Source of the DNA: Nocardiopsis ganjiahuensis DSM 45031 | Lineage (GTDB): Bacteria; Actinomycetota; Actinomycetes; Streptosporangiales; Streptosporangiaceae | Assembly (NCBI RefSeq): GCF_000341085.1 | Contig: NZ_ANBA01000014.1 | Coordinates: forward strand, 310,001 to 374,000 | DNA: 64,000 nucleotides | Reading direction: 5' to 3' | Part shown: in pieces, positions 21,892 to 38,194 of the stretch | Position numbering within the stretch: position 1 is the stretch's first letter | How the letters are laid out: each line of letters begins with the position of its first letter | Translations under genes and position numbers: made by a program | The notes under the pieces: generated by a model | What the model saw: the letters and a program-made list of their open reading frames with translations, nothing else | What the model was told of the DNA's origin: nothing | Database searches by the model: none

Positions 21892-23424
21892 TTACGTCCG
21901 TCCGCCGAGAGGAAGCCAGTGAAAACGGACCAGAGCGATCTGTTCGCCGATATTATAACCGGATGCTTTCAGTCGACTCACGGAGAAACTCAGGATAACG
22001 GTTTTTCCCCTGGCTACGGGAATCAGCGGGGAGTAGGCCAGGTGTTGGCCCGGCAAGTTCTCAAAAACGAAGTTGGGGTATTTGTCTGAATTGTCATTTG
22101 TTGTTTCGCATTTGGGCCTAATGTATGAGATGAACTCGGTTTGTGTACTCGTTTGGGCGTATCCGAGCATCAACCCGTCGCTCTCGGCTGTGTATTCCAT
22201 GTGGAGTGAATCGATTTCTTGCCCGGGTTGTCCGGCATGTATCTCGAAATTCCTGATGACCTCCCATTCCCCGAAGAGGCTGACATTGCCCTTGACCGTG
22301 AGGTCGCCGGTGGTCACGTGACCGTCCCCGTCCAGGGAGAACCGGGCCAGACCTGGGTCGAAACCGGAAGCGTCCGGGTCGTAACCGATGTTCTCCGGAG
22401 CGAGCACGGTCAGCCCTGAAGCCGTGGTGATACGGCCGTTGAACCTAATCTGGGTTGTTTCCGTGGTGGTCTTCTCACCGCGGATGATCGCGCCGGTGGA
22501 GAGGCTGCCGTCCTCCCAGACACGGAAGTTCTCACCTATCCGCACCCCGCGGCCTTGGTTTCCGTTGAGCGCGGTGACTTCCACGGGGTGTTCACCGCCC
22601 ACAAGAACCCGATCTGCTCGAACCTGGTCTGCTTGAACCTGCCCTGCTCGGGCCAGGTCCGCTCGGACCTCGGTCGCGTCGACCACCGGCCGTGACACGG
22701 ACACACCGCAGGTCGCGTAGGACTTGACGGAGGTCCCCGAGGCGTCGGAGAACTCCTCGATCAGCGTGAAGACAGCGTCGTCCGACAGGGTTCCGACCAG
22801 CCACTGGTAGGTGGGGTCGGGGGTCCCGGCCGCCACCACGGACCTGGGTGTGCTCTCCCCCGGAAGTCCCGCCAGTGAGTAGGCGCACCTCGGGTCCCCG
22901 TTCCACACCAGCCGGACCTTTTCGGAGGTGGTGACCCGTGGTTTCTCGGCGCGGAAGTCCAGCCTCTGGTGCGGTCGCTGCGCGGCGTCCCCACCCACTT
23001 TGGGCACAGAGAGCAGGGCCCGTCGTGGTTCCGTCTCGGTGCCGGACCACTCCAGGACCTCCAGTCGGGTGGTCCCGGGCTGTCCGTTGACCCGTACCCC
23101 GGTGAGGCTGAGGGTCAGGCCCTCCCCGCCGGTCCTGGCTCCCTTGAAGGTCGCGTACTGGTACCCGGGTGTGGCGAGTACCGTCTCGGGGGTGATCGTG
23201 TCCAGGGACCAGTTCTGCGAACTGGCCGAGGGCACGACTGCGCCCAGAGCCGGGGTCAACGCCTGGGAGGTGTCGCCGACCCGGACACCGATCATGATCC
23301 GGGTGACGTCCACGGGGTCCTGGCCTCCGTTGGAGACCACGATGTGCAGGTCCGCGCTCCCCTGGGTGGTCAGCGGGGAAGGTGTGCAGACGAGTGAGTA
23401 GTCCAGTCGGGTTTCCTCGGGCAT
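21892..23424 (-). CDS. large-protein operon, gene 4: tail-fibre/adhesin-like protein
   Basis: A 510-residue protein, last of four co-directional genes; it begins 12 bases after the preceding stop. The N-terminal 240 residues are Ser/Thr-rich beta-strand sequence without a known domain. A pentapeptide-like alternating stretch follows near 250-275 (VRADLARAGQVQADQVRADRV), then a region like phage tail fibres: VRIGENFRVWEDGSLSTGAI, FNGRITTASGLTVLAPENIG and RFSLDGDGHVTTGDLTVKGN. The C-terminal 130 residues form another beta-rich domain ending in LVRFHWLPLGG. No signal peptide or catalytic motif is visible. I infer a trimeric or elongated surface/fibre protein; homologous structures and partners need searching. 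Confidence 0.6.
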   Translation of the reverse strand: MPEETRLDYSLVCTPSPLTTQGSADLHIVVSNGGQDPVDVTRIMIGVRVGDTSQALTPALGAVVPSASSQNWSLDTITPETVLATPGYQYATFKGARTGGEGLTLSLTGVRVNGQPGTTRLEVLEWSGTETEPRRALLSVPKVGGDAAQRPHQRLDFRAEKPRVTTSEKVRLVWNGDPRCAYSLAGLPGESTPRSVVAAGTPDPTYQWLVGTLSDDAVFTLIEEFSDASGTSVKSYATCGVSVSRPVVDATEVRADLARAGQVQADQVRADRVLVGGEHPVEVTALNGNQGRGVRIGENFRVWEDGSLSTGAIIRGEKTTTETTQIRFNGRITTASGLTVLAPENIGYDPDASGFDPGLARFSLDGDGHVTTGDLTVKGNVSLFGEWEVIRNFEIHAGQPGQEIDSLHMEYTAESDGLMLGYAQTSTQTEFISYIRPKCETTNDNSDKYPNFVFENLPGQHLAYSPLIPVARGKTVILSFSVSRLKASGYNIGEQIALVRFHWLPLGGRT

Positions 23425-23436
23425 CTTCGTCCTTTC

Positions 23437-26400
23437 TCAGCGGGAGGAGGGGGTGGGCAGTACTGCCAGGAGTCCGTTTCGCAGGGGTGGGGTCGGGGTG
23501 AACGCCGCCTGTTCGTTGGCGGGAGCGGTCGGCCACCACTTCCAGGTGCCCCCGGGTTCATGCTCCGCCCATTCCCAGGTCTGGGCGGGGCTCTCCCCGA
23601 CCGGTAGGAGCACGGAGGCGCCGTTCTGGGGCGCGAGCAGCGGAGCCACCCGGAAGAAGGCGGGCATCGTCGACAGCGGGGCCGCGCACCGGTCGGGGAG
23701 GCGGACCGAGACCTGCGGGAGGATCCCGGTCGTGGCGTGTACGGGGGTGTGGGCGTCCATGAGAAGGGTGAGCGTGGTCTCCGACGTGCCGTCGGCGCGC
23801 AGGAGGAGGTCGTGCCCCTCAGCGGGGTGCACCCAGATACCGGGGGCGGCGTTCACACCGTGGAAGGGACCGCCGGGCCGGGCGACGTCGGTGTAGCCGA
23901 CGAGCCCGTCGGTGGTGCGCTCGGGCTCGCCCAGGCGCACCGCCCACGGGTAGGACGGGTAGGCGGCGCCGGTGCCGTGGCCGCGGCGGCTCGGCAGGAT
24001 GCTGCGCCAGCTCGGGTCGAACAGTGGCGGCCCGTCGAGTTCCAGACGGAGCCTGGCTCGAACCACCGCGAGGGGGCGTCCGATCAGTTCCAGGTGGGTG
24101 TGGCCGCTGCTGTTACCCGTACTGGTCACGGCCGCCGCCGTGGTGATCTGCTGCCACATCTCGTCGAAGTGCTGTGAGCTTTCGAGGGTGCTGAGCAGGC
24201 GGAGCAGGGCGGGACCGGGTGGTCGGGGGCCGTGGTTCTGGGGGGAACGCCAGCCGGGAGGTGTGGGAAGCTCGCTGGCGGCCGAACCCACTTGACGCAG
24301 GGGCTTGCCGTCCGCGGCGAAGGCCATGAGGGTGCGGTCCAGGTGGTTGGGCACCAGCCAACCGTGCACGGGCTGGGTCAGGCCGTGGTCGTCCACCCGT
24401 CGCTCGGGTTCGGCGGTGTCCAGCAGGTCGAAGGAGAGTCGTGCCGCTTGGAGCAGGCGCGGTTGCGTCCTGATGAACTGGTCCCGGGCACGGGGCCGCG
24501 CCGGATCCCGGCTGTCGAGCCGTTCGGAGACGTCCACGGTGACTTGGTCGCGGTTGTCGGGGGTGACCAGGGGCAGTGCCTGACCGAACCGGTCGACCAG
24601 GGTCAGCCGGGTGAACACGAAACGGGTCGCCCGGGTCTGGGCCATACGGTGGACCGGCTCGGTGAAGGGCAGGGGGAGCGGGCCCAGGTCGGGCACACGG
24701 CGCACTCCGCGACCGGTGAGCGCGGCCGTTCCGGGCGGGGGCGCCGGCGCCAGCCCCGGTGTACGCAGCGCGAGCCGGTCCGTGAAACCCGTCAGCGGCT
24801 GGGCCAGCACACGCCATCGCTCGATGGAGGAGGAGAACTCCTCGATGCGTGCGCGAATCGGCTCGTCGAGCTGTGGGTGCTGTTCGGCGTAGCGTGTGAG
24901 TTGGGAACGGAAGACCTTCGGCGCACCGGTGTCCACGGGCTGTCGTCCGCTCAGGAGCAGTGGGTCGCCGTGATCCGGTTCGGTTTCCTCGCGCAGGTAC
25001 CGGTTGCCGTCGAACCGCCAGCCGGGGTCGTCTGCGCCCGTGCACGGTACCGGGTGGACCTCCACCTCCCATTCCAGGTACAGCGGCTGCCAGGGCGCGT
25101 GCCAGGCGGGGCCGGACACGACGCAGCGCCCGCACTGCACCAGGATGGCCTCGGCGAGTTCGGGGCTCTCGGACCAGGCCGGAGACAGATCCGGGAGGTT
25201 TTCCTCCGTGGCCTGGACGAAGCCCGGCTCCCTGGTGAACCGGCACCCCTGGGTTTCGGGCGCGGCCGGTGCGAGCTCGACGTCGGTGGTGGGCAGGGTC
25301 AGCAGGGCGACCGGGTCCGCCGCCCGGTGGAAGGCCGGTTTCTCCGAGCGCTCCACGGTCCAGGAGGAAGGGACGGCCCGGGCGCGCCGGTACTCCGCGA
25401 CGGCCTGTTCCAGGGGCCGGTCCGGCCCCTCCACCGGCATCTGGGAGGCCAGTCGGGTGATCCGGGCTTCGGTCTGGCGGATGCGCGCGGCCACCGTGCC
25501 CGGCCGGAGGGGGTCGAGTTCCTGGTCGAAGTCGGCCCGGTCCAGGCCCGAGGGCAGGGCGGGACGGCCCCGGGCGAACCAGAGCGCGTAGGCCTCCCAG
25601 CGGGCAGAGGCGAGTTCGCGCCTGGCGGTGTCGAGCTGGTCCTGGAGGGAGTTGAGTTCGGCGGCCAGCTTTGCGGCCCCGGTGGCGTCCTCGTCCGCGT
25701 CGACGGTCCACCGGTGTCCTCCGGAGAAGGGGAGGAAGGCGGAGGAGAACTGGCGCTGGGCGGTGGTGAAGGCGCCGTCGGTATCGTCCGAGGCGGGCAG
25801 GTGTCCGAATCCCAGGTGCCGCAGCGCCTCGGCCTGGCCGTGATCGAGGGCCTGGTCACCGAGGGAGGGTGAGCTCAGGGCGGCGAGGAAGGCGTCGACG
25901 GCGGTCGGTCCCACCGCGATACCGACGTCGTCGGGGTCGGGTACCGCGTTCGTGCCGATTCCGGGTGACCAGGGCACGCCGTGGACGGCTCCGCCGTACA
26001 CCGACCGGCCGTGCCCGGTTAGGGGTTGTCCCGGAGAGGCCAGGTGCCATCCCGCGTCTTGCAGTGCTCGGTCCAACCCCGCGTCGCTGTTGAGCGGATC
26101 GAGTCGGGGGTCGGAGTACCAGCCGACGACACCGTAGTTCAGCCGCAGGTCGGGCCCCGTCCCGCCGGGGGTGTCCAGCCCGGCGAGAGTGTCGTGGAAG
26201 GACAGCACGTCGGGGTGGTAGGGCTGGTAGGCGGTGAAGGCGGGAAGTCCGGGGCCGAGCGCGGTCAGGGGCTCGGGCAGGTCGTGCCCGGGGTCCTCCT
26301 GTCGCAGGCGCGGCCAGTCGACCAGCCGGGCGGCCCGGCCGATCCGGGTCAGCCGCCAGCTGTCCCCGTGTCCGACGACGTAGGGCGCGCTGCCCCGCTC

Positions 26401-26784
26401 CGGGTGGCTGTAGTCGCTCTCCACGATCCACGCCTCCGGCGGCAGGGGGTTCCCGGCGTTGGTGCCGGTGCGGGTGACCAGCCACCGGTTGGGCACGGCG
26501 GGGAAGGTGACCGCGGTCGAGCCGGGGCCGACGCCCGGTCGGCCGTGGCGGAGCGCGGCGGGTAGCGTCCACTGGACGTACACGCCGTCGCTGTCCTTCC
26601 TGGAACGGAACTCGGCGTCTGCGCCCGCGAAGGGTTCGTGTTCGGGGTCCAGCCGGAGCGCGGTGAGGTGGAAGTTCGGTGTCCTGCGTTCGAAGGCCGT
26701 CTCTGACCGGGTCACGGGCGTGACCGGTAGTGCGTGCACGCTGATCGGGACGTGCACCCCGTTGATCGGCTCCTGGGGGTTCAT
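23437..26784 (-). CDS. large-protein operon, gene 3: 1115-residue protein of unknown function
   Basis: A 1115-residue soluble-looking protein with no signal peptide or membrane segment. It starts MNPQEPINGVHVPISVHALP at ATG 26784, which shares one base with the previous stop (TGATG). Residues about 370-460 are predicted helical and coiled-coil-like (AAKLAAELNSLQDQLDTARR; RIRQTEARITRLASQ). The remainder is rich in Pro, Trp, Asp and loops, with repeated WxxP-type segments (WEVEVHPVPC, GWRFDGNRYL). No catalytic motif is recognised. Tight coupling implies that it works with the DUF6603-like and fibre-like products, for example as a scaffold. No better assignment is possible from the sequence alone. 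Confidence 0.6.
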   Translation of the reverse strand: MNPQEPINGVHVPISVHALPVTPVTRSETAFERRTPNFHLTALRLDPEHEPFAGADAEFRSRKDSDGVYVQWTLPAALRHGRPGVGPGSTAVTFPAVPNRWLVTRTGTNAGNPLPPEAWIVESDYSHPERGSAPYVVGHGDSWRLTRIGRAARLVDWPRLRQEDPGHDLPEPLTALGPGLPAFTAYQPYHPDVLSFHDTLAGLDTPGGTGPDLRLNYGVVGWYSDPRLDPLNSDAGLDRALQDAGWHLASPGQPLTGHGRSVYGGAVHGVPWSPGIGTNAVPDPDDVGIAVGPTAVDAFLAALSSPSLGDQALDHGQAEALRHLGFGHLPASDDTDGAFTTAQRQFSSAFLPFSGGHRWTVDADEDATGAAKLAAELNSLQDQLDTARRELASARWEAYALWFARGRPALPSGLDRADFDQELDPLRPGTVAARIRQTEARITRLASQMPVEGPDRPLEQAVAEYRRARAVPSSWTVERSEKPAFHRAADPVALLTLPTTDVELAPAAPETQGCRFTREPGFVQATEENLPDLSPAWSESPELAEAILVQCGRCVVSGPAWHAPWQPLYLEWEVEVHPVPCTGADDPGWRFDGNRYLREETEPDHGDPLLLSGRQPVDTGAPKVFRSQLTRYAEQHPQLDEPIRARIEEFSSSIERWRVLAQPLTGFTDRLALRTPGLAPAPPPGTAALTGRGVRRVPDLGPLPLPFTEPVHRMAQTRATRFVFTRLTLVDRFGQALPLVTPDNRDQVTVDVSERLDSRDPARPRARDQFIRTQPRLLQAARLSFDLLDTAEPERRVDDHGLTQPVHGWLVPNHLDRTLMAFAADGKPLRQVGSAASELPTPPGWRSPQNHGPRPPGPALLRLLSTLESSQHFDEMWQQITTAAAVTSTGNSSGHTHLELIGRPLAVVRARLRLELDGPPLFDPSWRSILPSRRGHGTGAAYPSYPWAVRLGEPERTTDGLVGYTDVARPGGPFHGVNAAPGIWVHPAEGHDLLLRADGTSETTLTLLMDAHTPVHATTGILPQVSVRLPDRCAAPLSTMPAFFRVAPLLAPQNGASVLLPVGESPAQTWEWAEHEPGGTWKWWPTAPANEQAAFTPTPPLRNGLLAVLPTPSSR

Positions 26785-28766
26785 CAGTGCTGCTCCTGCG
26801 GGGGGGTGCCGAAGTACTGCCGGAAGGGGGATCGGATGAGTTGGACCGCGAGCTGGGAGGAGGTGGGTGCCGGCTCAGAGCACGCCTTAGCGGCCAGGGC
26901 GGTCAGATTCAGGGTGCGGTCGTGTGCCGAACGCATCAGGGGAGCCAGACTCACCCTCTGTCCGGTGTCCTCCCCGTCCGGGCCGCGCACCACCGTCTGG
27001 AGGCCGTCGTCTCCCCGGGTGAAACCGAAGTGCAGGCCGTGCGCGGGTTCGGCCAACTCCACCCAGGTGACGGCGGAACCGCTGTCGAAGAGGCAGAGGA
27101 GGACGTCGTTGGCGAGGGCACGGCGGCGTACGGTGACCGGCCCTTCCGCACTTCCGGCGTTGACGTGCAGGGTTGGCCAGTCGGCGACCAGCTGGGAGCG
27201 GATCAGCAGACCGGTGCGGTGATCGGCTCCCGTGTCCAGCCCGGTGAGCGTGCGTCCCCGCTGCAGGGTTGCGGCGGTCAGCGCCTCGATGGTGCTCCGG
27301 AGACCGGAGCTGCTGGCACTGACCTCTGCGGCACCGGTGATCAATTCCTGTACCCAGGTCTCGTCCACGTGGAAGAAGCGCAGTGTCTCGGCGGGCAGCA
27401 TCCGGGGGTCGGGCACCAGGTGGCAGAAGGGTACGCCGCGCAACTGGAACAGATCGGCTGCCAGGAGTTCGGCGGCCGCTGTCACGTCGGCGGGGGAGTG
27501 GGCGGGGGCTGTGGGTGGTGCGGGCGGTCGGGCCGGGGCTGGCGCCGGATTTTTCGTGACCGCGCGGTGCGTGTGCAGGGCCGCGCCCAGATCGCGGGCG
27601 GCACCGCTGGTCAGGAGGGTGTGGAACTGCTCCTGATGGGTCCGGGGAGCGCGCGACGGTGTGCGCTGCGTTGCCTGGCCCGCGGCCAGAATGTCGGCCC
27701 GGCCCAGCGCGATCGTGCGCCCCAGGGCTCGGGCGTCCGCATAGCCGAGGTCGGAGGCGGGACGTGTTCCGGTACGCGGTTGCAGGGGACCGCCGTAGCA
27801 CGGTGGTGCTCCGGATTCGTCGTCCAGGAGTGCGGGAGAGAGGTGGACGCGTACGGCCCCCGTGCGGGGCGTCTCCGCTTCCGGCGTGCCGGGGACGGAG
27901 ACGGGGGGAGCGCTGAACTGTCCCCCGGTGGTCCGGCACTCTCCGACGAGCTCTCGGAGTACGGCCCCGAACCCGGGGCCCGTGTCCGGGGCACAGTTGA
28001 ACGACCAGGAGTGCAGGGACACCAGGCGCACGTGGACGGGGGAGTCCGAGGTCAGATTCTCGGCCATCGTGTGCACCCCCTCCAACGACACCAGGTGCGC
28101 GGCCTGGGCCACCGTCCCCGAGGCGGGCGCCGCGGGGAGGCGGCCGGCCACCAGCACGGCGCAGTCCTGGGGCAGCACGGACACACCGTCGCTGTAGGGC
28201 GTGCTCGAGGTACGCACGTGTGCGAGATAGCTCAGGTCGGCGGGGGTGGGCAGTACACGGCGCAACAGCGGCGTCGGAATCCGGACGGTCTGGCAGGTGA
28301 GGGCGCCCTCCTCGGCCGTGGTCTGCAGGTTGGGAACGGCGCAGCTGGTGTCGGCGAGCCACTCCCGGACCGTGGTCCGGGTGGTGCGGCCCTGGGCACC
28401 AGGGTCGTCGGGGAGCTCACGGGCATCGAAGAGCAGGAGCGCCAACCACGGAGGGGGCGGCCAGGGCTGGCTTTCCTCCATGAGTCCGAGGCCGCGTTCC
28501 CACGGCAGAGTGAGCCGGGAGAGCGTGGCGTGCGGCAGCACCGTGTCGTAGGAACCGGTAGAGGACGGTGGCGGGTACACCCTGGCGACCAGCCCCGGGT
28601 CGAGGCGAAAGCGCGGTGCGGTGACCTGGATCTCCTGTTGCGTGGACCCTTGGCGGGGATCGTTGCCGGTGGTGATCCCGTACTCGGCGGTGACCCTGTA
28701 GCGGCCCGCGGAAAGGGAGGGGACGGCGGCGTCGGCCATGCTCAGGGTCGCCGTGTTGTGAGACAA
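26784..28766 (-). CDS. large-protein operon, gene 2: 660-residue protein of unknown function
   Basis: A 660-residue protein starting 16 bases after the stop of gene 1. The N-terminal part reads as beta-structure (GRYRVTAEYGITTGNDPRQG; QEIQVTAPRFRLDP), then a Trp/Pro motif QPWPPPPWLALLLFDARE. A Pro/Ala linker (PAPAPARPPAPPTAPAHSP, about residues 415-435) separates a C-terminal domain with Asp/Glu-rich helices and LLIRSQLVADWPTLHVNAG. No transmembrane or export signal and no enzyme motif is seen. Its stop overlaps the start of gene 3. The Ig-like N-terminus and the long linker suggest a structural rather than catalytic part, which is inference. Confidence 0.6.
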   Translation of the reverse strand: MSHNTATLSMADAAVPSLSAGRYRVTAEYGITTGNDPRQGSTQQEIQVTAPRFRLDPGLVARVYPPPSSTGSYDTVLPHATLSRLTLPWERGLGLMEESQPWPPPPWLALLLFDARELPDDPGAQGRTTRTTVREWLADTSCAVPNLQTTAEEGALTCQTVRIPTPLLRRVLPTPADLSYLAHVRTSSTPYSDGVSVLPQDCAVLVAGRLPAAPASGTVAQAAHLVSLEGVHTMAENLTSDSPVHVRLVSLHSWSFNCAPDTGPGFGAVLRELVGECRTTGGQFSAPPVSVPGTPEAETPRTGAVRVHLSPALLDDESGAPPCYGGPLQPRTGTRPASDLGYADARALGRTIALGRADILAAGQATQRTPSRAPRTHQEQFHTLLTSGAARDLGAALHTHRAVTKNPAPAPARPPAPPTAPAHSPADVTAAAELLAADLFQLRGVPFCHLVPDPRMLPAETLRFFHVDETWVQELITGAAEVSASSSGLRSTIEALTAATLQRGRTLTGLDTGADHRTGLLIRSQLVADWPTLHVNAGSAEGPVTVRRRALANDVLLCLFDSGSAVTWVELAEPAHGLHFGFTRGDDGLQTVVRGPDGEDTGQRVSLAPLMRSAHDRTLNLTALAAKACSEPAPTSSQLAVQLIRSPFRQYFGTPPQEQH

Positions 28767-28782
28767 AGCAGCGAGTCCTTCT

Positions 28783-31700
28783 CTAGTTCAGGAACGGGAG
28801 GGCGGCCGTGGGTTCGGTGGTGGCACTGAGCACGGAGGCCGACAGGTCGAGCTCGTAGATTCGCGCGGCGTCGGCCACGGTGCAGGTCAGTCCGAGGATC
28901 TGGTCCCGGACCAGGTCATGGCCTGGTCCGGTCTCCTCCATCGCCCCCCACAGAGCGGCGGGGACCGACCCGGTCGCCACCGTGGTGGTCCAGCACTCGA
29001 CCTCCTCGGCGGTCAGGTTCTGCCACTGTCCGTCGCGTGATGCCTCGATGCGTACGGAGTGGTAGCCACCGGTGGTCTGGACCCCCATCGGGCGGACGCA
29101 GACCGGAGATGGGGCGGCACCCGCGACGGGGACGTCCCGGTTGCAGAACCCGACCCGTGCGGCCGGTACCGCGCACCGCATGCTGAAGGAGAACCCGTGA
29201 GCAGCCACGGTCCAGACCGAGTCACTCCGATGCGGTTGAGTGTCGGTTCCGTGCGCTTCGGTACCCAGGCCCGCCAGCGGGGTGAGGAGCAGGTGCTGTT
29301 CGGGAAGGAGCTTCTGACTGAATTCCTCCCAGCTCAAACGCTGTGCCAACGCGCCCTGGGGCGGTGCACCGAAGTTGACGTGGAAGGAAATGACGGTCCA
29401 GTCGATGGTGACCCGGCCGCCGGTGGGCGGACCGTACAGGTCCACGTCCACGCTGAAGTGTGCGCCCAGGGTGATGTCCCAGCCGAAGACGCTGAACGTG
29501 TACTCCACACCGATGCTGACCGAGACACCGACGTCGAAGTGGAAGGGCGCCCAGGCGATCAGGATGTGCGCGGCCAGGTCCAGCCAGGCGTGCAGTCCGC
29601 CGGATCGATAGGAGACGTTGAGGGCGCCGCCCGCCATGATGGCCCGGGGCGTCAGCGCGAAGTAGGCGTCCCCGTGGACGACCACACCGGTCGCGGGGGT
29701 CCAGTCGATCGCGACCCGGTCGACCTTGGGGTAGTGGTCCGGTACGGGGTAGCCGTCCGGATATCCGCCGATGCTGAGCACGAAGTCCCCGCCGTGCGGG
29801 CCCGACATCCACGTGTAGAGAGCCAGCCCGCCGGTGACCCGGCAGTCCTTGGACACGACGTAGGTCTTGTCGGTCAATCGCGCTTCGGCGGAGAACAGGT
29901 GCTGTGAACGCAGATAGCCCACGCGCAGATCCATGTCGGCGACCGCGTAGAGGGTGGCCGGGGCTGCCCCGGGCACGTCCTTGGCGGAGGGGAAGGTGGC
30001 GTTGGCGTGCCCGATGAGGGTGATGCTCAGATCGTCACCAAGCCCCACGGCCAGTACGGCCTCACCGCTGATCATCTCGAAGGCGGTGAAGGTCAGGCCT
30101 GCGGCGGCCCAGAACTCCCCTGCCGCGGGCACCAGCCAGGCGTCATCGCCCTCGCCGCGCAGTTGTTCCAGCAGGGCTGTCTGGCGTTCGGTCACAGCGG
30201 AAGCAGGATCCGTGCCGCCCTTCGGGGCCTGCCCCTCCCCTTCGGTACTGGCCTCCGCGGGTTTGGTCTCTTCGGTCCCGGACTCCGAGACCTCGGCCTT
30301 CGCACCCGCCGTTCCCTCGGTACCGCCGGTGTCGTCCTTCGTGCCCTCGGCACCGTCCTTGGTGTTCTCGGGGGCGGTGTCGGTCATGGCCGTCAGGAGG
30401 GGGAAGGAATCGACCTCGGTGATCGCGGGTACGCGCAGCCGGCTGTTGTATCCGAAGCCGCCCATAAGGCCGGTGACCACGAAGACGGGGGGTTCACCGA
30501 ACTTGATGCCGAGGCGACCGATCACGTCCAGGGAGAACCATCCGGCCCTGGCGTGCTGGTAGCTGCCCACGGCCTCCAGGGAGAACTTGGTGGCCGAGAC
30601 GTTGACCGTACCGCCCAGGCGCACGTCGAACTCGTCGTCGGCGGGCCAGCGCTCGAATCCGCCGCTGAGCGTCAGGGGAGGGCGGGAGTAGGCGACGGTC
30701 AGGCCGTCCAGCATCGGCTCCGGGGTGAACTGGCCCGCACGCAGTTCCGCCGGGGAGAAGCCCAACCCCAGGCCGTCCGTCTGGGCGCTGAGCCCTGCGA
30801 AGGCGAGCCCGGCGTCGAACATCAGCCAGAGTTTGCGGTCGTGGTGGCCCAGCCCGATCTTGCGCAGGTCGAGAGGGCCGAGTTGGCGCCGGACGTCTTT
30901 CCACGACACCGAGGGCTCCGAGTCGCCACCGCTGGCCGTGCCTTCGCCCTCGTCAGAGGAGGTCGCGCCGGAGGAACTCTTCTGGACCGGGGAGTCGTCC
31001 GAGGTACCGGTGCCGGTCCCCTTCACCTCGGGGGCGTCCGCCGCGGGGATGCTTCGGGGACCGGTGTCGGCCTCCGCGTCCGACCCGCCGCCCAGGTTCA
31101 GGTCCACACGGCTGTCGGACTGTCCGGGCAGCGTCAGAGTGAGGGACAGGCATGTGGCGGGGGTCCTGCCCTCCGACGGCTCCGGGAGAGTGAGCGTCTC
31201 CGGAAGCGCGGTGTTGATCCGTCGCACCGTCTCGGCGTCGAGCCGGGGCCGGGTCAGTGTCAGGTCGGCTCGGCTCACTCCGGCGTCCAGGTCCGAGGGG
31301 ATCAACTGGCCGACCATCGGGAGGTGGGACGCGGTCAGGCTGGACCCCAGGCTCGCCCGGGTGAGGAGAGCCAGTGCCGTGCCCGGGGTCTGGGAACCGT
31401 TTGCTGCCGGGTGGTCGAGGGCCACGGCGACGGACACCGGGTCGGAGAGCACCGCGAGGGTGAGGGTGCTGCCTCCGGGGGATTGCGTCCCGGGGTGTTT
31501 GGTGTAACCCAGGGAGAGCTCCGTGACCACCGGCAGGAGTTCGTCGGGGAGGTCGGCCCCGGGGTGCAGGGCGCGGACGACCGCGCCGAGGTTGACACCG
31601 CTCTCGTCCTTCCAGGAAAGATCGATGCGCTCTCCCGACCCGCGGGAGGCGTCGCCCCTCCAGGTCATGGGGTGTGGGGTTCCGTCGATCACGACCGGCA

Positions 31701-33240
31701 GGACCACGGTGAGGTCCGCTCGTTCGGCGGCGCCCCGGGTGATGTCCAGTTCGCAGGTGCTGCCTTGGGGCAGGACGGACCAACGCCCCGAGCACCGCAC
31801 GGAGAACTCGCCCTTCTCCGTGCTCGCCTCAAGGTGCAGTTCGGTCAGTTCCACGTCACCGAGCACATGACCCAGGTCGGTGCCGTGCCCGGCTCGCGCC
31901 CAGTCCTGGACGGCTGACGCGTTCGGGCGCAGGAGCTTTCCCCGGAGGTGCCAGTTGTCCCGGGAGTGTTCCAGGGTGGTGTCCACACGCAGTGCCCCCA
32001 GCAGGGCGGTGCCCTGGGCGGTCGCCCTGATCTGCTTGCGACCTTCGTCTGACGGCGCGCTTTCGGGCGGTGTCTCGGCACCGCCCTTCCCCGCGGCGTC
32101 TTCCTCGGTGGGGTGAGCCTCCTCTCGGGTGATGGTGAAACGCGGATCCCGGACGCCGACCCCGTCGAGGAGTTTCCAGGTGCCGGACATGTTGAGCTGT
32201 GCTGACCACGTACCGGCCCGGGCGTCGCCCGTGACCGAGGCCGAGACCACGTCCAGGTCCGGCAACCCCTGGAAGGCGGAGAAGGCGGATTCGGACAGTC
32301 GTGTGGCGGCTGGACCACCCGCTTCACCCGGCGGGGTGGGGGGCATCTCGATGAGGTCCGCGCCGAATTCCCCTTGGGGCAGGGTGCAGTCGGCGAAGAG
32401 ACGCAGACCGCCGAAGTCCAGCGCCCCCTTGAGCGTCACGCGGGTGGTGGGGGAGGCCCCGGAGAGGTCGATGTTGACGACGGCTCCGGGGTTACGCATG
32501 ACGATCGGCTCGGGTGCCTCGAAGAGGGTCAGCGGCTGCGAGACGTCCAGGAGGAGCCCTACCGACGTGAGCTTGTGGTCGTTCGGGTCCAGCCGGAGTT
32601 GGCAGGAGAGGGTGGACGCGGTGCTGGGGAAGTTCCGCTGCTCTCCGAGCGACCAGTGCGCACCGTTCCGGGCCTGGGCCGGGACGAACGGCAGGGACAT
32701 GACGTCCAAGGCTTTGTAGAAGGCGAAATTCTCGCACGCGAGGACGGAGTCCTCTCCGTCGTAGAGGAGTTCCAGCCCGCCCGCTCCTGGAAAGAAGACG
32801 CCGACCCGCTCATAAGCGGTCACCTCCTCCTCGGCAGATGTGGCGCACACGACCGCGATCGCGTGGAATTCTTCTTCTTCGAAGAGTCCACGGAGAAAGG
32901 AAAGGTTGGTCTTTCCGTTCTTCGGCGAGGTGAATTCCCAGTCGGAGAGGTGGAACTTCAGCAGCGCAGACGCCTCCCCATCTCCCTCCGTGATCTCCAG
33001 GGAAGCTATCACGGGGTGATCTTGGGACAGGGGTGTCACCTCCGCCTCATAAAAGGAGGGGGTGGCGCTTGGTCCCCCAAAGGAGGGGGCAGCGCTTGGT
33101 CCCCTGTCTGCTCTGATGAAGCGGGCTGCGTTGCCTTTGAGGTAGCTCGCCAGTTCCTTCTGTGCCTTCTGCGGAACCACATCTTCCGGGAGTCCTAGGG
33201 GTGTCTCTCCGGAGCTGTCTCCCAAAAGGTTTTCCGGCAT
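28783..33240 (-). CDS. large-protein operon, gene 1: 1485-residue DUF6603-like protein
   Basis: A 1485-residue protein. I place the start at ATG 33240, directly behind AGGAGAAGC, although the frame is open to 33354. Residues about 790-1300 resemble the DUF6603 family: LRKIGLGHHDRKLWLMFDAG, SAQTDGLGLGFSPAEL, SRPPLTLSGGF and later SVFGWDITLGAHFSVDVDLY plus GPPTGGRVTIDW. This part is amphipathic beta structure, alternating like a barrel or long sheet. Two acidic low-complexity linkers (around 715-770 and 950-1010, rich in Gly, Ser, Thr, Glu) separate domains. A 180-residue C-terminal domain follows. Function of the family is unknown. It heads a four-gene operon with its own promoter. Family naming is from memory and should be checked. 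Confidence 0.65.
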   Translation of the reverse strand: MPENLLGDSSGETPLGLPEDVVPQKAQKELASYLKGNAARFIRADRGPSAAPSFGGPSATPSFYEAEVTPLSQDHPVIASLEITEGDGEASALLKFHLSDWEFTSPKNGKTNLSFLRGLFEEEEFHAIAVVCATSAEEEVTAYERVGVFFPGAGGLELLYDGEDSVLACENFAFYKALDVMSLPFVPAQARNGAHWSLGEQRNFPSTASTLSCQLRLDPNDHKLTSVGLLLDVSQPLTLFEAPEPIVMRNPGAVVNIDLSGASPTTRVTLKGALDFGGLRLFADCTLPQGEFGADLIEMPPTPPGEAGGPAATRLSESAFSAFQGLPDLDVVSASVTGDARAGTWSAQLNMSGTWKLLDGVGVRDPRFTITREEAHPTEEDAAGKGGAETPPESAPSDEGRKQIRATAQGTALLGALRVDTTLEHSRDNWHLRGKLLRPNASAVQDWARAGHGTDLGHVLGDVELTELHLEASTEKGEFSVRCSGRWSVLPQGSTCELDITRGAAERADLTVVLPVVIDGTPHPMTWRGDASRGSGERIDLSWKDESGVNLGAVVRALHPGADLPDELLPVVTELSLGYTKHPGTQSPGGSTLTLAVLSDPVSVAVALDHPAANGSQTPGTALALLTRASLGSSLTASHLPMVGQLIPSDLDAGVSRADLTLTRPRLDAETVRRINTALPETLTLPEPSEGRTPATCLSLTLTLPGQSDSRVDLNLGGGSDAEADTGPRSIPAADAPEVKGTGTGTSDDSPVQKSSSGATSSDEGEGTASGGDSEPSVSWKDVRRQLGPLDLRKIGLGHHDRKLWLMFDAGLAFAGLSAQTDGLGLGFSPAELRAGQFTPEPMLDGLTVAYSRPPLTLSGGFERWPADDEFDVRLGGTVNVSATKFSLEAVGSYQHARAGWFSLDVIGRLGIKFGEPPVFVVTGLMGGFGYNSRLRVPAITEVDSFPLLTAMTDTAPENTKDGAEGTKDDTGGTEGTAGAKAEVSESGTEETKPAEASTEGEGQAPKGGTDPASAVTERQTALLEQLRGEGDDAWLVPAAGEFWAAAGLTFTAFEMISGEAVLAVGLGDDLSITLIGHANATFPSAKDVPGAAPATLYAVADMDLRVGYLRSQHLFSAEARLTDKTYVVSKDCRVTGGLALYTWMSGPHGGDFVLSIGGYPDGYPVPDHYPKVDRVAIDWTPATGVVVHGDAYFALTPRAIMAGGALNVSYRSGGLHAWLDLAAHILIAWAPFHFDVGVSVSIGVEYTFSVFGWDITLGAHFSVDVDLYGPPTGGRVTIDWTVISFHVNFGAPPQGALAQRLSWEEFSQKLLPEQHLLLTPLAGLGTEAHGTDTQPHRSDSVWTVAAHGFSFSMRCAVPAARVGFCNRDVPVAGAAPSPVCVRPMGVQTTGGYHSVRIEASRDGQWQNLTAEEVECWTTTVATGSVPAALWGAMEETGPGHDLVRDQILGLTCTVADAARIYELDLSASVLSATTEPTAALPFLN

Positions 33241-33285
33241 GCTTCTCCTGCTAGGGGTGTCAGGGAAATTCTGGAGGGAGGTTGG

Positions 33286-33315
33286 AAGATAGCAGCAAGA
33301 AAAATTTCGGGTCAA
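33286..33315 (-). promoter_or_regulatory. promoter of the large-protein operon
   Basis: On the minus strand TTGACC (33315-33310) and TATCTT (33291-33286) are separated by 18 bases, in an A/T-rich patch, about 45 bases before the start codon of the 1485-residue gene. This is a good housekeeping-sigma match. Confidence 0.6.
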
Positions 33316-33579
33316 GCGAAGTATTAAGGATGTGCAACGGTTCCTTATTGGCACCTGTCGTGTCCGAACATTTTGCTCTTCCTTGGCACTCTTGTGGGAA
33401 AGTCTATTGATTTAAAAGGATCGCCTGGATTGTCCGTAAAACTCCGGACTCTTTCGATGGGTTGGGCAGGTGTTCGGATTCGGGGTACTTCCGTGGACTG
33501 CATGGTTGGCGCCCCCTATGGCGCTGCTGAGCGTGGCCCGCAACACCCGGAAGAGCTGTCTGTTGCCGGGTTGGGCGCC
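33316..33579. other. A/T-rich gap upstream of the large-protein operon, no gene
   Basis: Low-GC sequence (around 33360-33440) lies between the operon promoter and the DUF2637 relic. No gene is supported. Confidence 0.4.
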
Positions 33580-33756
33580 TCCAATGCGTGGTTGGGTGCC
33601 ATCCATGCTTGGCTGTCCTTCGCGCTGATCGGTGCGTACAGGCTGTTCATAGGGGCGTTCCGTGCGGCGGTCAGGTACGTACGCAGCCAGCCCTCAATGG
33701 AGGGGCAACTACCCCTGCCGGCGGATCCGAAGACACGCCGGAGGCAGATGAGATGA
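33580..33756 (+). pseudogene. DUF2637 relic (fourth membrane segment and tail)
   Basis: The translation AIHAWLSFALIGAYRLFIGAF, followed by RAAVRYVRSQPSMEG, closely parallels IHAWPSFALIGAYELLM and its tail in the gene at 4253. The first three membrane segments are missing and the sequence upstream in the frame is unrelated, so this is a decayed or truncated second copy. It hints that DNA of the same integrative-element type once lay here too. Confidence 0.65.
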
Positions 33757-34165
33757 CGGCTGTCGACAACGAGAGTCTCTGGAACTGCCTCCATGGTGTG
33801 CCCGCACCGAATGCCTATGCCTCAAGCAGAGACTCCTGGACTGAGGACGAATTCGAAACTTATGTATGAACATAAGATTTTTGGTCAATCTGCTCGGTTT
33901 TTGTGATCTGTCAGCGTCACGCCCCGTTTGGCGGCCTTCCCGATCTCGTGGCGGAGTGCCCGATGACGATTCTTCGAGCCCGACAGGTGCCCGAAGCCAG
34001 GCAGGAGGATTTCGGTGCACTGGTCGAGCAGCCCACCCGCGCTCGGATGTGGTGAAGCCCTCGCTGAAACCGGCCCGGGATGGATCGGCTCGGCCGGACC
34101 GACCGTGCCCAAGGGCTTTGCGGGTCCTCAACGAACGGGCGGCGATCACTAGCCACGTCCACCGG
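33757..34165. other. degenerate DNA, no gene recognised
   Basis: The minus strand carries a short plausible stretch (GHLSGSKNRHRALRHEIGKA, around 33930-33990) that I cannot assign; it may belong to a decayed mobile gene. Nothing intact is present. Confidence 0.35.
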
Positions 34166-34363
34166 TCAGCGGCCTCGGGCGAGCGGCCCTTCGGGGCGCC
34201 CTGGCGAACGTTTCAGGCCACGGCACTGGACGTCCACAGCCAGCACGATTCGGCCGTCTGCCGTCCGGGGCAAAGGCGGATCGGCCGACGGGTGCCGCAG
34301 TCTGTAAGTGGCTGTCTGGTGATTTCGCACCACGCAAACATCAACCCCTGCGAACTCATTCAA
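34166..34363 (-). pseudogene. IS701-like transposase fragment
   Basis: The minus-strand translation LPRTADGRIVLAVDVQCRG resembles the N-terminal catalytic-Asp region of the same DDE family as the relic at 19.2 kb (family form: ADGR-VVLAVDVS). Only about 100 bp is recognisable. No ORF continues on either side. Confidence 0.4.
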
Positions 34364-34509
34364 GTAGGCTTTCTAAGGGCGACTTGCGGGCGCTCGTCCT
34401 TTATGCGCCATCGGGTTTGACATTTCCTCGGCTCAGGAGGTTTCTGGTCGCGGAACATAGAGAAGATCGGATCGGGGAAATGCCCCTGAATACGAACACG
34501 AGGAGACCG

Positions 34510-34698
34510 GTGCGTCGCATTATCGCCACTCTCGTTCTGACCGCAGCCGCCTGCGGAGCGCTGGCCGCGCCCGCCGCCGCCGAGAAGGTCATCACTATGG
34601 AGGAGTGCTTCCTGGGAGGAGGAACCCTCAAGGGTCACGATTCCCTCGGTATGGTCTGCGACGGAGGCGAACACGATGGTGCTGTGGTGATTTTTTAA
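34510..34698 (+). CDS. small secreted two-cysteine peptide 1
   Basis: GTG 34510 follows AGGAG and opens 62 codons; an upstream in-frame ATG (34480) is possible. The N-terminus MRRIIATLVLTAAACGALA plus APAAA is a Sec signal peptide with a predicted cut after AAA-A, leaving about 38 residues (EKVITMEECFLGGGTLKG...). The mature part has two Cys about 20 residues apart and is acidic, ending in GAVVIF. Similar tiny exported proteins are common and uncharacterised in actinobacteria. It is flanked on both sides by transposase relics; two others of similar design lie at 35766 and 37219. Confidence 0.6.
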   Translation: MRRIIATLVLTAAACGALAAPAAAEKVITMEECFLGGGTLKGHDSLGMVCDGGEHDGAVVIF

Positions 34699-35057
34699 CT
34701 AATTCTGTGCCTCGCAGAACCGGCCAATGATGGCACCCCATGCGGCGCCATCTGGCCCCTGGTGTCGCCGGTTCCCCGCCTCCACATCGGGGCGGGGATT
34801 TCTGTCTCACAGGGCGTGAGCCAATCCTCAGCCGCCGTCTCACCCCGGCGGGCTCATCGCCGAACCCGTCTCGTGCCAGGACTCTCTGCTCCAGGCCCTC
34901 GCACGTGTACCCGACCCACGCGGACTCTGCGGACGACGCCACCCGCTGGTCCGGAACCCAAGGGTTCACCGCGATCGGCCAATAGGCCGCCAAGAGCACC
35001 ACCCATACACTCACTATCCTGGGCATGACCCGGGGAATCGCCAGGGCTCCGGCAAAG
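34699..35057. other. no gene recognised
   Basis: 359 bases between the secreted peptide gene and the ISAs1 relic. No convincing ORF or strong hairpin was noticed. Confidence 0.4.
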
Positions 35058-35545
35058 TCAGGTCTGTAGGAGTCTGAGTGGGCGAGCCTCGTCGCGGATC
35101 ATGTGATGGTTGGCCTGGGCGATGTTGTCGAACCCGGCCGCTCTGAGCAGCCCGATCGCGGTGTTGCGCAGGGTCGCCATGACCTGGGCAGCGCTGCCCG
35201 TGCGCACCTGGGAGCGGTCCTCGTCATAGGTGACATCCCGGACGTGATGAAGCTTGTTCTCGATGCCCCAGTGCTGGCGAACCCATCCGGCCAGCACCAA
35301 CGCAGGCGCAGCGCGGTGGTCAGCCGAGGTGCTCAGGTAGACGACCTCGACACTCTTGCGTTTGGGTGAGCCCTTGGACTTCTTGCGCCAGGTGGTACGG
35401 CGCACCTGGGCGACCTGGGTCGCGCCTTCGAAGGTGATCCACGCCGGGACCTGGGCGGTCTTGATGGTGCGGGTCTCTTTGCGGCCGTGTCCGGTATCGC
35501 GTGTGGTGTGTGCGGGCACGTGCTTCCACGGCACCTTGCTCGAAC
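35058..35545 (-). pseudogene. ISAs1-family transposase, C-terminal half
   Basis: The minus strand reads [39 protein letters not shown], and the family hallmark [21 protein letters not shown] with [13 protein letters not shown], ending at a stop at 35058. This is the C-terminal half of an ISAs1 transposase including the catalytic Glu of GIEN. The N-terminal half is absent; a related copy at 37.4-37.9 kb keeps the N-terminal part and lacks this one. Confidence 0.8.
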
Positions 35546-35765
35546 AATAACCGAAGGTTGCCAATCTGCGACTCCTCGAGCCACGAGGGGATGAAAAATA
35601 CCGCCAATCTTTACTTTTTCTTCGGGTCTTCTCTGATCTGTAAATATAGGTCCGATTTAATACATTCAGCAATAAACCTCCGAGTTCGTATTCAGCTTCT
35701 GACTGTCAGCCATCCCTCGTATAGGGTCTTCCTCGTACTACTGGGAAAGCTCTCAAGGAGGCGTT

Positions 35766-35981
35766 ATGTTCAAGAAAGTTTTCATCACGCTGGGTGTCAC
35801 AGCAGCTGGGATCGCTCTCTCCTCAGGCGCGGCTTCGGCTGACGTGCGCCCCCATTCCACCTACGGGTCACAAGAAACCTGCATGGGCAATGCCATGGCC
35901 GCTGGCGAGGACGATCTGGCGGCGTTCTGCCAGCCCAGCAACTTCGAAGAGGGAAAGTGGCTGCTCTGGGTGCAGAATTAA
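35766..35981 (+). CDS. small secreted two-cysteine peptide 2
   Basis: ATG 35766 is preceded by an excellent ribosome site AAGGAGG with 6-base spacing. The 71-residue product starts MFKKVFITLGVTAAGIALS, with a Sec signal peptide cut after ASA, leaving DVRPHSTYGSQETCMGNAMA and about 26 more residues with two Cys, 16 apart, and a Trp-rich end (KWLLWVQN). This is typical of small exported actinobacterial proteins with one disulfide. Low-GC DNA with a TATAGG box lies about 45 bases upstream. The role is unknown. Confidence 0.8.
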   Translation: MFKKVFITLGVTAAGIALSSGAASADVRPHSTYGSQETCMGNAMAAGEDDLAAFCQPSNFEEGKWLLWVQN

Positions 35982-36101
35982 CTGCTTGTTGCACTCACGA
36001 AGACGCAGGTCACAACCCCATCACCCGACTTTGTCGGAACCCTGGGTTCATATGGCCAGGCGGTTGGGGTGTAGATCACGGGTGCTCCCGTCCCCTTTTT
36101 C

Positions 36102-36870
36102 GAGCTCATCTCATTTGGGTTCTCGATAACCTGGCCCGGTGTCGATGGTTGAGCGTTTGGTGTTGGATGGACTGTGGGAGCTGTTTCAGCGGGTGGGCGC
36201 CTCGGGCGCCCACCCGGCCTCAAGGTGGTGGGCGGCGCAGACACGGAGACCGTGAGGTGTTGGCCGCGATCATCTTCGTGGCGACCACCGGCTGCACGTG
36301 GGCCCAGCTCCCACCGGTCTTCGGCCCCTCCGGGCCTACCGCACACCGGCGTTTCAGCGAGTGGAGCCGGGCCCGTGTGTGGGCGAAGCTGCACCGCCTG
36401 GTCCTGGACGAACTCGGCTCCCGCGGTGAGCTGGACTGGTCGCGGTGTGCGATCGACTCGGTGAACATGCGTGCGCTCCAAGGGGGGACCTGACAGGTCC
36501 GAATCCTGTCGATCGGGGCAAGAAGGGCGCCAAGATCCACTTGATCACCGATCGGGCCGGGCTTCCGATGTCCATGGCGATCTCGGGTGCGAACCTGCAC
36601 GACAGCCAAGCGCTGTGACCGCTGGTGCGTGCGATACCGCCCATCAGGTCCAGGCGAGGCCGCAGGCGGCGCAAACCCGGCAAGCTCCACGGCGGCAAGG
36701 GATATGACTACACCCACCTGTGTCGATGGCTGCGCGAACGCGGGATCGTCCATCGTCTGGCCCGCAAGGGCGTGGGGTCCTCGAAGCGGGTGGGGCGGCG
36801 CCGGTGGCAGGTCGAGCGCACCATGTGCACGTTGATTTGCTTCCGCAGACTCACCAAATGAGATGAGCTC
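36102..36870 (+). mobile_element. IS5-family element, decayed
   Basis: Perfect 17-bp terminal inverted repeats GAGCTCATCTCATTTGG lie at 36102-36118 and, inverted, at 36854-36870. The 769-bp length is short for IS5: comparison with the fragment at 41.2-41.5 kb shows that about 80 bp were deleted near the 3' end, between CGCACCATG and TGCACGTTGAT. Confidence 0.85.
36143..36866 (+). pseudogene. IS5-family transposase with stops and an internal deletion
   Basis: In several frames the translation gives LAAIIFVATTGCTWAQLPPVF, VWAKLHRLVLDELGSRGELD and CAIDSVNMRA (first catalytic Asp region), then KKGAKIHLITDRAGLPM, SGANLHDSQAL and a KLHGGKGYDYTHLCRWLRERG stretch. Frameshifts, an in-frame stop after HDSQAL, and the loss of the ERTMTWL Glu motif show that it is dead. 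The element ends themselves are intact, so it could move if a transposase is supplied elsewhere. Confidence 0.8.
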
Positions 36871-36885
36871 TAAAAGAACGAACAA

Positions 36886-37065
36886 CAACCGCAGACCCCG
36901 GCACTACAGCCGCAGGCTGTGTCGCCTGTTCCACCTCTCGGCGCAGTCAGCGCTGCTACGGCTGGGCGCGTCTCAGGAGTACTACCGGCGTAAGCGGGCC
37001 GAAGGGGTGCCGCATCCTCAGGCGGTGGTGTGCCTGGCCAGGCAGCGGACCAACGCCTTGGCGCG
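36886..37065 (+). pseudogene. IS110-family transposase, C-terminal relic
   Basis: The translation HYSRRLCRLFHLSAQSALLR and YYRRKRAEGVPHPQAVVCLAR, with ARQRTNALAR, is the conserved C-terminal region of IS110-type (DEDD) transposases, which normally ends shortly after. The rest of the gene is absent because the IS5 copy lies directly upstream. Confidence 0.65.
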
Positions 37066-37218
37066 CCAACCTGGTGGCCAGGTTGGGGGCGACTCGCGGA
37101 CCTTGGTGGTGGTATGCGATCAGGAACGGCCTGTTTTTGCTGGTGGCAGGGTTGGCTGTCCGGGGGTGAGGGAACTAGCTGGGAGGCAGGATCCAGCTCA
37201 GGAGATTGAGGAGAGTCG

Positions 37219-37368
37219 ATGCGTCGCATCGTCGTTGTTTTCGCCCTGACCGCCGCCGCCCTCGGGGCGGCGGCGATGCCCGCCGCTGCCGCGCAGCCAG
37301 CACCGCCGTCGTGTGACGCAGTCACGCCCGGCACGCCGGCCTGGTTTGCCCTCGGCTGCTGGTCCTAG
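37219..37368 (+). CDS. small secreted two-cysteine peptide 3
   Basis: A 49-codon gene: ATG 37219 behind GAGGAGA, stop TAG at 37366-37368. The product begins MRRIVVVFALTAAALGAAAM, then PAAAA, a Sec signal peptide, and leaves about 25 residues (QPAPPSCDAVTPGTPAWFAL then GCWS) with two Cys near the ends, suited to one disulfide loop. The signal peptide resembles that of peptide 1 (34510). It is squeezed between an IS110 relic and an ISAs1 relic. Confidence 0.65.
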   Translation: MRRIVVVFALTAAALGAAAMPAAAAQPAPPSCDAVTPGTPAWFALGCWS

Positions 37369-37445
37369 GTCGATTCGTCCCTGTCGTCTTCCGTTCACCG
37401 GAAAACGGCAGGGACGTGTCTGTGTTGGGGAGTTCAGAAGCCGAA

Positions 37446-37874
37446 TCAGTTGCTCTTGTGTTTGGGTGAGCCCTTGGACTTCTTGCGCCAGGTGGTACGG
37501 CGTAGCTGGGCGATCTGAGCGGCGCCCTCGAAGGTGATCCACACCGGGACCTGAGTGGTCTTGATGGTGCGGGTCTCTTTGCGGCCGTGCCCGGTATCGC
37601 GTGTGGTGTATGCGGGCACGTGCTTCCACGGCAGGTTCTTGAGCTGGGCGTAGAGGTGTCTGTTGTCGGCCTTGACGGTGAAGACGTAGTGGGTGCCCTG
37701 GGCCCGGATGGTGGTGGCGGTGTCGGTCTGAGTGTGCATCGCGTCGAGGGTGACGTCCGCTCCATCGATGTCCAGGAGGTCGAGCAGGTTCCGCACGACG
37801 AGAACCTCGCCGTGCGGAACCTGCTCCAGTTCATCGATACCAACGGGGTTGTGGTCACGGTCGACGCGATACAC
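37446..37874 (-). pseudogene. ISAs1-family transposase, middle fragment
   Basis: The minus strand reads VRNLLDLLDIDGADVTLDAMH, QTDTATTIRAQGTHYVFTVKA (shown in part) and [19 protein letters not shown], the catalytic-Asp region of ISAs1 transposases. It ends at SPKHKSN, just where the fragment at 35.1 kb continues with VEVVYLS. About 190 bp are shared between the two relics. At its upstream end it meets an inverted copy of the same region on the plus strand. Confidence 0.75.
37782..37826. repeat. inverted repeat where two ISAs1 fragments meet head to head
   Basis: GAGCAGGTTCCGCAC (37782-37796) and GTGCGGAACCTGCTC (37812-37826) form a perfect 15-bp inverted repeat with a 15-base centre. To its left the minus strand encodes VRNLLDLLDI, to its right the plus strand encodes VRNLLQFIDTNG, so two related ISAs1 copies are joined in opposite orientation here. 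Confidence 0.75.
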
Positions 37875-37895: not shown

Positions 37896-37906
37896 ACCCT
37901 CCAGCC

Positions 37907-38150: not shown

Positions 38151-38194
38151 TCGCCAGGTGTGCCGGGGGGCCTCGCATGCGCGGGGCGGGCACC

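Follow-up and report, generated by a model that had tools for sequence, protein, structure and literature searches.

The window analyzed here is a stretch of 64,000 nucleotides from Nocardiopsis ganjiahuensis DSM 45031 (NCBI RefSeq assembly GCF_000341085.1, contig NZ_ANBA01000014.1, positions 310,001 to 374,000), and our subject is an operon of four genes on its reverse strand, here called A, B, C, and D. Gene A (28783..33240) encodes a DUF6603 protein of 1,485 amino acids, predicted to be a giant amphipathic antiparallel beta protein; it starts with an ATG at 33240, with an AGGAG-type ribosome-binding site ahead, and an alternative GTG at 33354 would yield 1,523 amino acids. Genes B (26784..28766, 660 amino acids, TTG start) and C (23437..26784, 1,115 amino acids) encode conserved proteins of no known family and, for C, no known fold. 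Gene D (21892..23424, 510 amino acids) encodes a fibre- or adhesin-like protein whose C-terminal half is probably beta-helix-like. An earlier note, made from the letters alone, had listed four leftward genes of 1485, 660, 1115, and 510 residues with gaps of 16, -1, and 12 bases, and the open reading frame (ORF) coordinates confirm it: 16 bases lie between A and B, B and C have a single base in common, and 12 bases lie between C and D. Third-position GC is high, like that of coding DNA (0.84, 0.84, 0.88, and 0.77 for A, B, C, and D).

A promoter-like site is found upstream of A on the same strand (33286..33315, TTGACC-18-TATCTT). It scores 9/12 and is the sole consensus match in 21000–34500; since shuffled sequences already give 0.5 ± 0.5 matches, the site that the earlier note called a good promoter is statistically weak. 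All four frames are open in L033, a locus of the same genus and the nearest relative compared, and dN/dS between the two copies is 0.41 for A, 0.48 for B, 0.29 for C, and 0.61 for D. Judged from these ratios and the intact frames, A–D is under purifying selection as proteins, weakest on D. In the same comparison dS of C is 0.07, far below that of A, B, and D (0.16–0.21), which suggests recombination within the operon.

Hardly any known domain is recognizable in the four proteins, which together have 3,770 residues. The only family above cut-off is DUF6603 in A, searches of B, C, and D against Pfam and NCBIfam giving nothing, and hydropathy alone (a Kyte-Doolittle scan) showed neither transmembrane nor signal-like stretches in A–D, in agreement with the earlier statement that the operon holds no recognised enzyme, transporter, or export motif. 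The description of A as mostly amphipathic beta sequence resembling DUF6603 was also borne out. A matches PF20248 with E 6.9e-125 (417.9 bits against a curated cut-off of 27), and the predicted strands of its residues 399–1485 have an alternation of 2.87, compared with 1.49 ± 0.17 in shuffles (0 of 2,000 as high); for the strands of C, 162 of 2,000 shuffles were as high. A structural model of residues 399–1485 of A (mean pLDDT 77, pTM 0.60) is a long antiparallel beta meander. The model of C is confident (pLDDT 81, pTM 0.82) and gave no fold match at E ≤ 0.001 in PDB and viral structure libraries. Against solved structures, the C profile matched one chain only, SUWA (E 1.6), and the profiles of A and B gave nothing at E ≤ 5. 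In PHROGs, A–D gave just weak matches of unknown function, to B (phrog_1797, E 0.0024) and D, and no structural phage family in A–C.

Membership in DUF6603 thus gives A a family name without a function, and the family covers at least two types of system. A search of the open full-text literature for DUF6603 or PF20248, a scope that leaves out most subscription papers and all bioRxiv preprints, returned no paper. Broader open-literature searches, judged mostly from listings rather than full texts, gave nothing that we recognized as an A-B-C-D module.

Gene Order in Relatives across Phyla

Of 298 genomes sampled from the window's family, 63 encode DUF6603, and the window's own genome has it at one locus. 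In the first 20 related stretches, A, B, and C were found together in 19 (tblastn). Of a further 20, six held A, B, and C, 13 belonged to a distant DUF6603 group, and one repeated an earlier locus in cut form. A pattern scan of genome contigs made from window A alone matched 10 stretches, none of which was confirmed; an alignment-based scan, with one genome per species, gave 422 tblastn-confirmed stretches that encode an A relative. From these 422 we kept the 79 loci (L059–L137) most similar to an A of the window's type (group 1), and the sample therefore favours that group. Synteny was counted in 74 of the 79, leaving out four loci whose A is identical to one elsewhere (L059, L076, L101, L118) and L064, whose frame for C is broken in two; D matches below 60 bits were ignored. 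Genes were called by simple scripts rather than a trained gene finder.

A and B were encoded together in 71 of the 74 named-genome loci, and A, B, and C in 65. The order was exactly A-B-C-D in 41, and L099 additionally contains it (42 in total). The other layouts were C...A-B (13), A-B-C without D (9), A-B (6), A alone (2), C-A (1), and A-B-D-C (1). Contig ends cut several loci, so these counts are lower bounds. The 65 loci with A, B, and C fall into seven named phyla (Actinomycetota 26, Pseudomonadota 11, Bacteroidota 10, Cyanobacteriota 5, Bacillota 5, Acidobacteriota 3, and Chloroflexota 1), with four in no assigned phylum; the co-occurrence in distant phyla that the earlier note had proposed looking for is therefore present. 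Judged by this synteny, A-B-C-D is a conserved module. The tree of A mixes phyla, and we propose that the module has spread horizontally.

The likeness of the last gene to a tail fibre rests on its relatives: it is seen in the homologues and the profile of D and not in D's own sequence. Homologues of D occur downstream of C across phyla; among 35, two contain Phage Tail Collar (PF07484) and seven give a weak Bactofilin match. The profile of D also has a weak match (E 0.0017) to a spike chimera that combines phage OBP gp146 with T4 gp5. In many C...A-B loci a gene of about 800 amino acids, here called c3, lies between C and A; its cluster comprises 24 loci, and it is absent next to the module in the window. 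Compared with solved structures rather than Pfam, the N-terminal part of the c3 profile matches lectin-like regions of an S-layer-domain protein (E 1e-18), an arabinanase, and pentraxins, and we read it as probably LamG-like. Its C-terminal part matches Bd2133 of Bdellovibrio (E 6.9e-9), a trimeric fibre described, in the accessible part of PMC10769870, as one of the mosaic adhesive trimer (MAT) fibres. D or c3 thus looks like a fibre adhesin by its sequence relatives, and both layouts tend to hold a fibre-like gene, as D follows C in one and c3 sits between C and A in the other. Few domains were recognized in homologues of the remaining genes: LamG and CBM_2 in one each of 52 B homologues, and TIG in three and RHS_repeat in one (E 0.08) of 39 C homologues.

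The distant second DUF6603 group (group 2: L050, L138–L142, L145, L147–L149, and L152–L155) appears to be a sister system. Its A is 22%–24% identical in the three members measured; 13 of its loci gave a weak B match in nine and a C match in none. Genes upstream of A in 11 of these loci encode M14, M64, and S8 peptidases, tyrosinase, galactose-oxidase-like protein, phospholipase D (PLD), and weakly trypsin-like proteins. A family was matched by nine of the ten upstream genes scanned, the trypsin-like match, found in L050 and L141, being below the Pfam cut-off.

The length of A varies. Proteins of about 3,000–3,900 amino acids are encoded in L046, L048, L049, L052, L150, and L151, and in the four very long ones measured 2,100–2,900 residues precede the matched region. 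The long N-terminal extensions of L046 and L048 were considered as known toxins and set aside, neither having a Pfam match. The variable N-terminus of window A was likewise rejected as a candidate payload: it has no Pfam match, and a profile built from the N-termini of relatives reaches only its last part. Two Streptomyces loci (L113, L123) encode an A with a C-terminal extension of about 450 amino acids that matches a beta-propeller (Lactonase family). Near opposite ends of the Streptomyces olivoreticuli chromosome there are two copies of the locus (L099, L101) with identical A; in these, A appears split in two, an M91-like gene (slightly under the cut-off) standing between the parts, and a further C-D pair, only partial, is found upstream.

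An Exchangeable Gene Position Upstream of A

In many relatives a gene lies directly upstream of A. We defined a slot gene as one on the same strand, of at least 200 amino acids, located 300–2,200 bp before the matched region of A. With this rule, and with the simple gene calls by which some slot genes may be wrong, one was found at 76 of 105 A loci (73 after removal of duplicates). The families above the Pfam cut-off are Lactamase_B (metallo-beta-lactamase, MBL), Exo_endo_phos (EEP), Lipase_3, Gln_deamidase_2, and sulfatase; the last is doubtful as a slot enzyme because 268 bp separate its end from the nearest A start. The MBL slot profile matches the ComEC nuclease domain (E 8e-28) and the EEP profile matches DNase I and gamma (E 3e-15), i.e., it is DNase-I-like. 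A further family, in Frankia, Parafrankia, and two Streptomyces, has conserved HH and WDN-type residues, no Pfam match, and weak matches to RecA chains only. Profiles of RIP-like and TAGT-like slot families had no meaningful match among solved structures. Residues of catalytic type are kept in the alignments of the MBL, EEP, TAGT-like, and RIP-like families. A hydrophobic N-terminal stretch was present in one of 73 slot proteins (hydropathy only).

Slot genes vary more between relatives than B and C do. Where two A proteins are at least 75% identical, the slot proteins are similar in 19 of 19 pairs. At 60%–75% identity of A, they are similar in 18 of 57 pairs, compared with 57 of 57 for B and 39 of 39 for C; at 50%–60% the slot figure is 9 of 44, and at 40%–50% it is 13 of 274, with B at 257 of 257 and C at 228 of 232. 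Slot genes are nevertheless tightly placed. The distance from the slot stop to the nearest possible A start is 60 bp or less in 54 of 73 loci, including 44 of 47 in recurring families, and there are several 4-base overlaps; same-strand neighbours within 60 bp are found for 6 of 52 genes next upstream and 5 of 57 downstream of the module, a comparison kinder to the slot, for which the nearest possible A start replaces the ORF-edge distance used for controls and the same strand is part of the definition. Families of at least three loci include 47 of the 73 slot genes, as against 0 of 52 next-upstream genes (a control that omits c3 and anything more than 3 kb away) and 0 of 57 downstream genes.

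We mapped the payload labels on a quick LG+G4 tree of 99 A proteins, 47 of them labelled, which has long branches, including the window's stem, and omits L059, L076, L101, L118, L064, and rows below 400 bits. The MBL label changes eight times (six forced by well-supported branches), EEP six (five), and TAGT three (three), with one change each for the HH and RIP-like families. In L095, a gammaproteobacterial metagenome-assembled genome, the MBL domain forms the N terminus of A itself, in one stop-to-stop frame of 1,784 codons (767–6118). Taken together, the slot appears to be an interchangeable enzyme position coupled to A.

In L095, the B frame also holds a D-like part. About 2.9 kb upstream of A in L034 (14471–16621), an MbnB/TglH/ChrH-type enzyme of ribosomally synthesized and post-translationally modified peptide (RiPP) pathways is fused to a DUF2063 domain; we rejected it as a slot gene because of this distance, and it is probably an unrelated neighbour. 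Small recurrent ORFs on the opposite strand near the slot, in clusters of three to four loci, look like antisense shadows.

A Putative Enzyme-Carrying Particle and Its Alternatives

That the four genes belong to an undescribed system, as the earlier note suspected, is well supported by these sequence comparisons: the genes co-occur in distant phyla, and none clearly belongs to a phage, extracellular contractile injection system (eCIS), or secretion family with its usual partners, as judged from Pfam, NCBIfam, and PHROGs for A–D, from phage records and viral contigs for A, and from a search for the contractile sheath. No tested component ties the core to a described machine. Our preferred reading, to which we assign a probability of about 0.5, is that A-B-C-D is the core of an undescribed, sheathless system, spread by horizontal transfer, for bringing an enzyme payload to other cells. 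A, B, and C would be synthesized as cytoplasmic proteins with no signal peptide and then build a large particle rich in beta structure; the product of the enzyme gene immediately before A would associate with the N terminus of A; and D, or in the other layout the lectin-plus-trimeric-fibre-like c3, would serve as the receptor-binding fibre. The particle would be released by an unspecified route, possibly lysis, after which the fibre would bind a target and the payload would enter or act on it. The evidence in hand consists of synteny, upstream coupling, enzyme exchange, one MBL-A fusion, fibre and lectin domains, an amphipathic A, and the lack of a sheath in the window genome. From it we infer physical assembly (A–D forming one complex, as the earlier note supposed), release, target binding, translocation, and toxicity. 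An extracellular enzyme-carrying particle seems to us the simplest explanation because giant conserved proteins, an adhesin-like protein, and an exchangeable A-coupled enzyme occur together, with no signal peptides in a simple scan.

Several results weigh against the delivery of payloads to other cells. In the window, the region where many relatives hold the payload gene (33355..38194) contains a transposase remnant (DDE_Tnp_1 in 35058–35672) and no recognizable payload; of its ORFs, 35058–35672 and 34384–34698 were scanned with Pfam and the others, of at most 263 amino acids, were not. No payload gene was seen in L033 either, which shares much of this upstream DNA. On the A tree the two copies share a long stem, and the clade that contains them has 19 rows, three with a recognized payload family. 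The window may hold the core with its payload elsewhere, unrecognized, or lost, and the swappable slot is invisible from the window alone because this copy lacks it. Among relatives, the slot rule finds no gene at 29 of 105 A loci, partly due to contig ends. The TAGT-like glycosyltransferase, RIP (E 0.00065), HNH, and Peptidase_M91 slot families fall below the Pfam cut-off, and of 29 distinct upstream proteins scanned, 13 matched nothing in Pfam at E ≤ 0.01, although alignments or comparisons of profiles place some of these 13 with MBL or EEP. All payload labels together need 11 changes on the A tree, whereas shuffles average 25.0 and none of 200 came as low; given this strong clustering, payloads were apparently mostly inherited and exchanged several times. 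No docking or sorting domain common to the payload families emerged when the profiles of 22 slot families or singletons were compared with one another (231 comparisons), in which only MBL with MBL, EEP with EEP, and, weakly, M91 with M91 (14.3%) matched. No immunity or lysis gene was identified; genes of at least 200 amino acids upstream of the slot, c3 left out, never recurred (0 of 52). The model of A gave 14 Foldseek matches at E ≤ 0.001 (best 6e-7), including apolipoprotein B, LptD, SlpA, and a pilus complex chain, with TM-scores of just 0.11–0.15 on the query; because of these scores the matches reflect a common local style of large amphipathic beta sheet and not a common fold. Finally, the enzymes of the sister group favour extracellular enzymes generally over toxins alone.

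This last point bears on an alternative that we regard as a real, if rather unlikely, option: that A–D form an adhesive scaffold outside the cell or on its surface, which displays hydrolases or oxidases on glycans or biofilm and injects nothing. Such a role would suit the LamG, CBM_2, and TIG domains in a few B or C homologues, the fibre and lectin-like regions, the tyrosinase, galactose-oxidase-like, PLD, and peptidase genes upstream of A in the sister group, and payloads that have no common translocation domain. It fits less well with the DNase-I-like, ComEC-like, deamidase, and RIP-like payloads, which are enzymes typical of effectors, or with the lack of signal peptides in the simple scan.

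We consider it unlikely that the module is an intracellular anti-phage defence system that recruits MBL nucleases and other effectors, comparable to the nuclease-protease pairs of Hachiman or AVAST. The accessible part of PMC12799240 describes antiviral pairs in which a ComEC-like MBL gene lies directly upstream of its partner gene, and the module resembles them where a ComEC-like MBL gene is directly upstream of the conserved A. The trypsin-like genes upstream of A in the sister group, and one plasmid locus near a CATRA gene and a CHAT gene, point the same way. In the module, however, MBL is one of several interchangeable enzymes. The lipase, sulfatase, and oxidase genes upstream of A in various loci speak against defence, as do tail-collar domains and the likeness to fibres and lectins. 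Pfam showed no domain of an NTPase, a sensor, or a protease in window A–D; the MBL loci had no dedicated protease search.

Less likely still, the slot genes could be merely the variable chromosomal flanks of a mobile cassette, with A–D having an unrelated role, e.g., as an internal scaffold. The mixing of phyla in the module tree and the window copy without a slot gene would both be expected, yet the recurring families and tight coupling of slot genes are rare or absent at the control neighbours, and the MBL-A fusion in L095 joins an enzyme to A directly. Origin from a phage tail, tailocin, or eCIS is highly improbable: D has tail-collar and beta-helix relatives and a sheath-family match (PF04984) occurs somewhere in 17 of 24 other module genomes, at an unmeasured distance from the module, but the remaining seven and the window's own 100% complete genome have none, A is missing from phage records, viral contigs yielded no relative in a pattern scan, and PHROGs gave only the weak matches described above.

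Comparison with known delivery systems places the module beside, not within, them. Tc toxin complexes are composed of TcA, TcB, and TcC and share with the module a few very large proteins and a variable enzyme; here the enzyme is usually a separate upstream gene and fibre-like proteins are present. We rejected membership in this class, as A–D match no Tc-specific or RHS-repeat Pfam family at E ≤ 1. Fibres, varied toxin-like payload genes, and environmental hosts over many phyla are features in common with eCIS, as presented in the accessible part of PMC8213781, where an operon call required at least 10 core genes; the module has a four-gene core, and the window genome no sheath. With polymorphic toxin systems, so far as the accessible text of PMC3482391 describes them, the module has in common a conserved core with interchangeable enzymes, found across relatives and not seen in the window; it differs in that the payload is usually a separate upstream gene where those systems have a C-terminal domain, and in that we identified no immunity gene. 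The similarity to the MAT fibres covered by the accessible part of PMC10769870 is confined to the C-terminal part of c3: c3 differs by its lectin-like N-terminal region and its place in the module, and no MAT fibre was among the solved-structure matches listed for the D profile.

A bolder form of the preferred reading, which we hold only tentatively and at somewhat less than even odds, is that A-B-C with D or c3 represents a new class of sheathless particle with interchangeable enzymes, horizontally spread over at least seven phyla, in which A would hold the payload and contact or cross membranes. It would join Tc complexes and eCIS as a third kind of large machine for extracellular delivery. 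If the delivery reading holds, hundreds of loci (the 422 stretches) would encode a delivery machine for which we found no name, with its own payload repertoire; DUF6603 would gain a function, and new effector enzymes and another protein-delivery chassis would become available. Even if delivery is wrong, a four-gene, 3,770-residue module across seven phyla is a directly testable unknown.

Neighbourhood of the Window Copy

Upstream of A in the window lie, in addition to the transposase remnant, a chorismate-binding enzyme (38195–39763) and a PP-binding carrier protein (40644–41075), which are perhaps part of a neighbouring secondary-metabolite cluster. An ORF of 142 amino acids at 37446–37874 clusters with the DDE transposase fragment at 35058–35672. 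Downstream of the operon, two rightward genes (15196–16536 and 17093–18427) encode paralogous helix-turn-helix proteins of 446 and 444 amino acids.

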